In this document: positions 6,205-7,248 of the stretch, piece by piece
How the letters are laid out: the number at the start of each line of letters is the position of its first letter
How positions within the stretch are numbered: the stretch's first letter is position 1
Source of the DNA: a bacterium
GTDB taxonomy: Bacteria; CSSED10-310; JAJRTK01
Direction of reading: 5' to 3'
Length of the DNA stretch: 7,248 nt
Assembly (NCBI GenBank): GCA_024278345.1
Contig: JAJRTK010000218.1
Location: 1-7,248, forward strand
Made by a program: the position numbers and the translations under genes
Notes under the pieces: model-generated
What the model was told of the DNA's origin: nothing
What the model saw: the letters and a program-made list of their open reading frames with translations, nothing else
Databases searched by the model: none

Positions 6205-6422
6205 GATATTGTGTATGAGCAGGGCCATGGTTATCGCCAACAGCTTGTTTTCCCCCGCACCCACCACCTGGAACTCTCATCACGGATCGTGACGAGGCTG
6301 GCGGGTGCGTTTCCACCAAGGACGAGGAAAGCCGGACACCGGAGGCGTAGTACGTAGGGATGGGGTTGTCAACTCCCCCCTGCATTACGTTGTTGGGTCG
6401 ATCGACGAGGACGCTGGTGGAA
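6205..6422. other. Intergenic sequence with an imperfect palindrome
   Basis: This is the rest of the divergent region between hyuA and the inserted element. The frames that cross it lack ribosome sites and recognisable motifs. At 6276-6296 there is a 21-bp imperfect palindrome, CTC-A-TCACG, GAT loop, CGTGA-C-GAG, with one mismatched pair. No good promoter for the PilZ gene was identified; TTGTCA near 6365 lacks a matching -10 box. Confidence 0.4.
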
Positions 6423-6430
6423 CCATCAGC
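6423..6430 (+). repeat. Left target-site duplication (CCATCAGC)
   Basis: The 8-bp CCATCAGC directly abuts the left terminal repeat of the element and recurs exactly at 6585-6592 just outside its right end. This is the expected footprint of a DDE-type transposition. Confidence 0.75.
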
Positions 6431-6584
6431 GGGACCTATCAGATCCGGTTGACAACATCACCGCTGGGGCGAGCCTCCTTCCCGGCTCCGTGCAGCCCGG
6501 AGGGCGCTACACCGGCAAGATGCCGGTGCCACCGTTTCGGCGAAGAAAATTGTAAAGCAAAAACACGACAATTTGATAGGTCCC
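6431..6584. mobile_element. 154-bp MITE-like non-autonomous element
   Basis: The ends are inverted repeats: GGGACCTATCAGAT at 6431-6444 and ATTTGATAGGTCCC at 6571-6584, matching at 13 of 14 positions. Outside both ends is the identical 8-bp CCATCAGC. The element is too short to encode a transposase, so it must be moved in trans. Its middle carries a perfect hairpin, CACCGGCA-AGA-TGCCGGTG at 6510-6528, and a smaller CTCCG/CGGAG stem at 6486-6502. The central sequence resembles, from memory, small GC-rich dispersed repeats of Verrucomicrobia and Planctomycetes. An intact duplication implies fairly recent insertion. The element ends 29 bp before the PilZ start codon, so it may alter that gene's promoter. 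The transposase family is not assigned. Confidence 0.78.
6510..6528. repeat. Perfect hairpin inside the MITE-like element
   Basis: An 8-bp perfect stem, CACCGGCA and TGCCGGTG, encloses a three-base loop. It has no following T-run, so an intrinsic terminator is unlikely. It is more like a REP-type palindrome carried by the element. Confidence 0.7.
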
Positions 6585-6592
6585 CCATCAGC
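6585..6592 (+). repeat. Right target-site duplication (CCATCAGC)
   Basis: This is the exact direct copy of 6423-6430, placed immediately after the right terminal inverted repeat. Removing the element and one copy rejoins a continuous sequence leading to the PilZ start. Confidence 0.75.
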
Positions 6593-6613
6593 AAACCACG
6601 AAGAAAATGTGTC

Positions 6614-6997
6614 ATGCGTGAAAAGCGAAGGTATTTTCGTGAGAAACTCCTCCAACCAGCCAGAATCGAATTCGACAACAAGGAGCCCAGCGGATTCATC
6701 TCCCACGGATCCTACGACGCATTCATCGTCGATCTCAGCATGAACGGAGCCTACCTCTTGAGCCCCGTAGCTGTCGATCCTGGAAGGCGGATTGCCCTTG
6801 AGATCCGGTCACAAAACGGTCTCCCTGGATTTCGTTTGCCCGCCAAGGTTGTGCGCTGTACAAGACGAGACAAGAATGACGCCGTACCCTTCGGCATCGC
6901 CATCCAGTTGGAAGAGGATCGGCGAGAGCTGGCCGCTCTTTTGGCCCAGCATATCCTTGAGCTGTACCGCACCGTTCTTCAGTCGCACATGAACTAG
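6614..6997 (+). CDS. PilZ-domain protein, 127 aa
   Basis: This is a small single-domain PilZ protein, a predicted cytoplasmic receptor for the second messenger c-di-GMP. Both ligand signatures are present: RxxxR as R5-R6-Y7-F8-R9 and DxSxxG as DLSMNG (D40, S42, G45). The following beta strands fit the PilZ barrel: AYLLSP, IALEIRS, FRLPAKVVRCTRR and PFGIAIQLEE. The C-terminal helix (residues 101-122, RRELAALLAQHILELYR) is common in the family. No membrane segment or second domain is visible, so it probably acts by binding a partner, for instance in motility, surface attachment or exopolysaccharide control; the partner is unknown. The open frame extends upstream to 6305, but that part crosses the inserted element and has no domain. 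The ATG at 6614 starts MREKRRYFR as typical PilZ proteins do. Its ribosome site is weak (GAAGAAAA). Confidence 0.9.
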   Translation: MREKRRYFREKLLQPARIEFDNKEPSGFISHGSYDAFIVDLSMNGAYLLSPVAVDPGRRIALEIRSQNGLPGFRLPAKVVRCTRRDKNDAVPFGIAIQLEEDRRELAALLAQHILELYRTVLQSHMN

Positions 6998-7182: not shown

Positions 7183-7248
7183 GGGTCACGTTTGCGTGAC
7201 TCGAAGGGTCACGTTTGCGTGACTCGAAGGGTCACGTTTGCGTGACTC
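7183..7248. repeat. Tandem 23-bp palindromic units running off the right edge
   Basis: The unit GGGTCACGTTTGCGTGACTC plus GAA begins at 7183, 7206 and 7229; the third copy reaches the window end after 20 bases. All visible copies are identical. Within each unit GTCACG and CGTGAC form a perfect 6-bp stem around a TTTG loop, extending to 8 bp with one G-T wobble. The 23-bp period is not a multiple of three, so it is not protein coding. The array length, and any link to the PilZ gene ending at 6997, cannot be judged from here. Confidence 0.85.

Follow-up and report, generated by a model that had tools for sequence, protein, structure and literature searches.

A 154-bp gene-less element with inverted ends and a conserved REP-like hairpin is very probably a new MITE family

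Results

A 154-bp element in the window

The window, by which we mean the whole stretch of 7,248 nucleotides that was analysed (contig C142 of an uncultured bacterium, from a genome of 6.06 Mb in 550 contigs that is 87.9% complete), contains a complete 154-bp element that, judged from its sequence and that of its copies, is very probably a MITE, a non-autonomous DNA transposon without a gene. Its occurrence is genuine and not due to chance, and the decisive evidence for this is genome-wide.

The element belongs to subfamily A and occupies positions 6431–6584 on the plus strand, as delimited by the copies in the genome, its own target-site duplication and the subfamily consensus. The duplication is an exact direct pair of the 8-bp sequence CCATCAGC, with the left copy at 6423–6430 and the right copy at 6585–6592. 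An inverted-pair scan and the subfamily consensus place the 14-nt terminal inverted repeats at 6431–6444 (GGGACCTATCAGAT, plus strand) and 6571–6584 (GGGACCTATCAAAT, as read on the minus strand), and these are complementary at 13 of 14 positions (93%); the stretch of the left end that is common to subfamilies A and B is 25 bp long and extends to 6455. The REP-like core is a hairpin at 6510–6528, CACCGGCA-AGA-TGCCGGTG, in which a perfect 8-bp stem (arms at 6510–6517 and 6521–6528) encloses a 3-nt loop. A CCACC tag at 6529–6533 adjoins the stem, such that on the minus strand the stem is preceded by GTGG and a single C, which places GTGG 5′ of it in the manner of the GTAG/GTGG tag of REPs. The longest open frame within the element is 51 codons, and the RNA fold of the element as a whole is strong (z −5.4 relative to shuffles). 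An earlier, sequence-only reading had described a 154-bp element with 13/14 inverted ends, an exact 8-bp duplication, a perfect hairpin and no transposase; a repeat scan reproduced its coordinates and description, and the hairpin and the lack of a transposase are likewise as it had stated.

The neighbours of the MITE are a minus-strand hydantoinase gene on one side and a PilZ-domain gene on the other. The PilZ-domain gene may start at 6614; the MITE is located directly upstream of it and could form part of its 5′ leader. The element is open in one reading frame and, since the element and its duplication together add 162 bp (54 codons), an upstream frame continues through the MITE into the PilZ gene (6305–6997). 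In a stop-to-stop open-frame test, which says little here about intergenic preference, the element copies were no different from the control. An Rfam scan of the window gave no match at threshold, weak Rfam matches around the element were judged to be chance, and a promoter and terminator scan found no feature.

Several other repeated sequences were observed in the window. The roughly 80 bp upstream of the MITE at 6267–6345 are part of another dispersed repeat, with 83% identity to the joined flanks of the MITE copy at L024. The sequence GGGACCTATCA occurs three times with no more than one mismatch, against 0.05 occurrences expected; the third, at 2456–2480, is a lone GGGACCTATCAAATCCGGATTGAC that matches the left end of the MITE nearly completely and has no partner. 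It sits inside an open frame without a Pfam match, and may be a relic end. A tandem palindromic repeat, GGGTCACGTTTGCGTGACTCGAA (23 bp, 2.9 copies), lies at 7183–7248 at the contig end, and a repetitive minus-strand open frame of 734 aa at 2–2203, open at the contig end, contains tandem units of 159 bp and 228 bp and has no Pfam match.

Copies of the element and evidence for transposition

The sequence-only reading had proposed searching the genome for further copies, and we found at least 40 at 95–99% identity, a lower bound set by the 40 candidates that were scored out of 270. When no more than one mismatch is allowed, there are 347 matches to the end pattern GGGACCTATCARAT genome-wide and none to its reversed control; there are also 228 tagged cores, with none in the control. 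The copy number is probably between about 150 and 230, a figure estimated from the ends and the tagged cores and not a count of complete elements. Many copies are visible only partially because several contigs start or stop within the element, and the element may thereby help to account for the fragmentation of the assembly. No copies were found in 40 relatives, or in plasmids, phages and viral contigs. A truncated copy of subfamily A is present at L105:4931–5042, on a contig binned as Myxococcota (JAJRTE010000302.1), and is followed by repeats resembling those of the MITE's genome; this contig perhaps derives from a near relative or is misbinned.

We examined the flanks of 55 complete copies in a survey that lists each element in both orientations, and observed an exact 8-bp duplication at 38 of the 55 and a 7/8 match at eight more (46/55 in total). 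In a shuffled-partner control, 7/8 is reached about once in 111. Exact duplications are seen at length 8 only, with none at lengths of 3–7 or 9–14. The duplicated sequences nearly all differ between copies, and the base composition of the duplicated sites is without strong preference.

For copies located in dispersed repeats, unoccupied sites with a single copy of the target are present within the genome; the sites compared are thus paralogous repeats in one genome and not orthologous sites. The copy at L098 has such unoccupied counterparts because it sits in another dispersed repeat. When its flanks are joined with one target copy retained, they match both L087 (69 bp, 98.6%) and L086 (104 bp, 94.2%) in ungapped alignments that span the junction. 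We infer that the family has been mobile recently. The earlier proposal of a MITE family is borne out by the abundance of near-identical copies, by the separate 8-bp duplication that most of them have, and by the paralogous unoccupied sites.

The parental transposase

We propose that a DDE transposase acting in trans would recognise the ends (GGGACCTATCARAT...) and move the MITE, and that a staggered cut of the target, made with no evident sequence preference, would be repaired to give the 8-bp duplication. This transposase may be of the IS1595/Merlin type, as the 8-bp duplication, the GG-starting ends and the inverted repeat of about 14 bp suggest, an assignment that is tentative and a little short of evenly balanced. 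The 8-bp duplication and GG-starting ends are those expected of the IS1595 family, and the resident IS1595-type elements were considered as the parent and rejected, having ends (GGCTCTATATGCGATCC) that do not match those of the MITE. No ends in common with a DDE_Tnp_IS1595-bearing element were found, as the resident IS1595 ends differ, and we therefore do not file the MITE as an IS1595 member.

That the MITE is instead mobilised by some other family making 8-bp duplications, such as ISL3, IS6, IS66 or IS256, is an alternative to which we give an evenly balanced probability. An 8-bp duplication alone is insufficient to name a transposase family, an ISL3 transposase is present in the genome, and no autonomous insertion sequence with the MITE ends was found in this 87.9% complete genome, so that the full-length parent that the sequence-only reading had proposed to look for did not emerge. 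A pattern search for the ends joined to unfamiliar sequence yielded only copies that were variant or damaged, along with a small number of lone ends, and no transposase. However, a Transposase_mut (IS256) gene is absent from the genome, and the MITE ends start with GG, a loose resemblance to the resident IS1595, which starts GG..CTAT. The resident ISL3 transposase also seems to have different ends; the apparent end downstream of its gene is GGCTCTTCGCC (complementary strand), which does not match, and we rejected it as the parent.

A second element, of 201 bp, was observed at L116:335–535. It is inserted in an ISL3 transposase gene and is accompanied by a 9-bp duplication (GTTCAAGCG). Its inverted ends are long (GGCCTYGGTCATRGTACCGGCCAC), it contains several hairpins, and lone ends of it occur at a dozen other loci.

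Subfamilies and conservation of the hairpin core

The copies fall into two subfamilies, both of 154 bp, with mean divergences from their consensus of 1.7% (A) and 4.5% (B), and the hairpin is at element positions 80–98 in both. The A and B consensus sequences are identical over the left end (25/25), the right end (14/14) and a central 24 bp comprising the hairpin and its CCAC/GTGG tag (24/24), whereas between the ends and the core only 23/54 and 23/37 positions agree. In subfamily B the stem has no substitutions at 16 sites in 14 copies, compared with 0.059 per site per copy elsewhere, although the copies are mutually related and the sites in this comparison are not independent. Old or diverged copies carry compensatory stem changes, from A-T to G-C and from C-G to A-T, giving stems such as CACCGG/CCGGTG, CACAGG/CCTGTG and CGCCGG/CCGGCG; the hairpin is therefore kept as a pairing and not merely as letters. 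By these sequence comparisons the core is as strictly conserved as the ends and is an integral part of the family, which is noteworthy in itself.

Besides the two ends, the central tagged hairpin is a third conserved module. It is most likely kept for aiding the movement or tolerance of the element, as a candidate binding site or as structured DNA or RNA. A stronger version, in which this third module is functional, either required in cis for transposition or coupling the element to replication or a host protein, and the element is a transposon-REP hybrid, is possible but doubtful. In one copy (L042:1571–1737) the hairpin core is tandemly amplified, with a 35-bp unit that is repeated 4.8 times and runs to the end of the contig.

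Relationship of the core to REPs

The GTGG and the 8-bp stem together have the tag-plus-stem-loop form of a REP, and we investigated whether such cores exist apart from the element. A genome-wide pattern search for tagged cores that lack the usual element surroundings, expected to overlook roughly one solo core in four, gave five places, and all five have element sequence around them: two are copies that differ by a single base, a third is a diverged copy, and the remaining two also lie with element sequence. Among 116 other genomes, three contain the core plus tag motif, each at one place. The genome has one Y1_Tnp (RAYT-like) gene, and the MITE hairpin is not found beside it. With no solo cores found by this pattern, and a RAYT-like gene lacking the hairpin, we conclude that we are dealing with a MITE that contains a REP-like module, as opposed to a REP. 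Directly upstream of the RAYT-like gene (L076:288–452) we observed a relative of the element that is strongly diverged and has a different hairpin.

The sequence-only reading had left open whether the MITE captured its palindromic core or evolved it. Capture of a pre-existing host REP seems unlikely to us. In its favour, the core is similar to tagged REPs, its conservation is that of a single block, and similar single hairpins occur in the three unrelated genomes. Against it, the MITE's genome has no family of solo cores, and since the hairpin is hardly found outside the element, the idea that a resident REP was captured lacks support. The core also occupies positions 80–98 in both subfamilies, so any capture predates the split between A and B. 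Of the two origins, an evolved core is the better fit.

Somewhat less likely still is the possibility that this is a host-beneficial repeat, regulatory or nucleoid-structuring, that is kept for its hairpin and is not mainly mobile. Preservation of the hairpin through compensatory changes, its freedom from substitutions in subfamily B and the strong RNA fold would all agree with such a role, but the independent duplications and low divergence indicate spread by transposition, and the ends are conserved equally with the core. A benefit to the host and the MITE interpretation are compatible, and one does not exclude the other. Finally, the perfect stem-loop with GTGG on its 5′ side, an arrangement known from published REPs, and the single Y1_Tnp gene might suggest a REP/REPIN-type element spread by a RAYT (an IS200-like tyrosine transposase), with the flanking repeats incidental, but this is highly improbable, as the element has 8-bp duplications and terminal inverted repeats that are unexpected for a tyrosine transposase, the RAYT-like gene is not flanked by the MITE hairpin, and the hairpin is essentially never solitary in the genome. 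To our knowledge, transposases of the RAYT kind make no 8-bp target duplications and need no terminal inverted repeats.

Discussion

We conclude that this is a new MITE family within a well-known class, and that the combination of a MITE with an internal tagged hairpin has a precedent in QMITE2. The element is abundant and comes from a lineage with little sampling, and its copies are numerous enough to show what is kept in a transposon without a gene, namely both ends and a central tagged hairpin.

Members of the IS1595 family and Merlin superfamily have GG-starting ends, inverted repeats of about 14 bp and 8-bp duplications (PMC8101967; ISApl4, PMC12561309), and the MITE is similar in all three respects; it differs in having no transposase and in its ends, which match neither those of ISApl4 (GGGGCTGTACTAGA) nor those of the resident IS1595 (GGCTCTATATGCGATCC). 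MITEAba12, for which ISAba12 is the likely parent (PMC6382973), is likewise short and gene-less with inverted ends (of 16 bp), and a resident insertion sequence is presumed to move it. However, it is AT-rich, 113 bp long and generates a 9-bp duplication, in contrast to the 154 bp and 8 bp seen here, and its likely parent is named.

The REPs associated with RAYTs have a GTAG or GTGG tetranucleotide 5′ of a short perfect stem-loop (PMC2817692, PMC3733652), an arrangement that the MITE core shares, although the MITE hairpin is confined to a transposon that has inverted ends and makes an 8-bp duplication, and no solo repeats were found. QMITE2 of Coxiella burnetii is a MITE of 150–190 bp with variable direct repeats of 7–11 nt and an internal GTAG REP (PMC5896051); both are small MITEs with direct repeats that vary in sequence and an internal tagged REP-like hairpin, a likeness judged from their descriptions. 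They differ in host lineage, in the tag, which is GTGG here, and in the duplication, which here is always 8 bp where present. With this family, the role of an internal MITE hairpin, a feature also of QMITE2, becomes directly testable.
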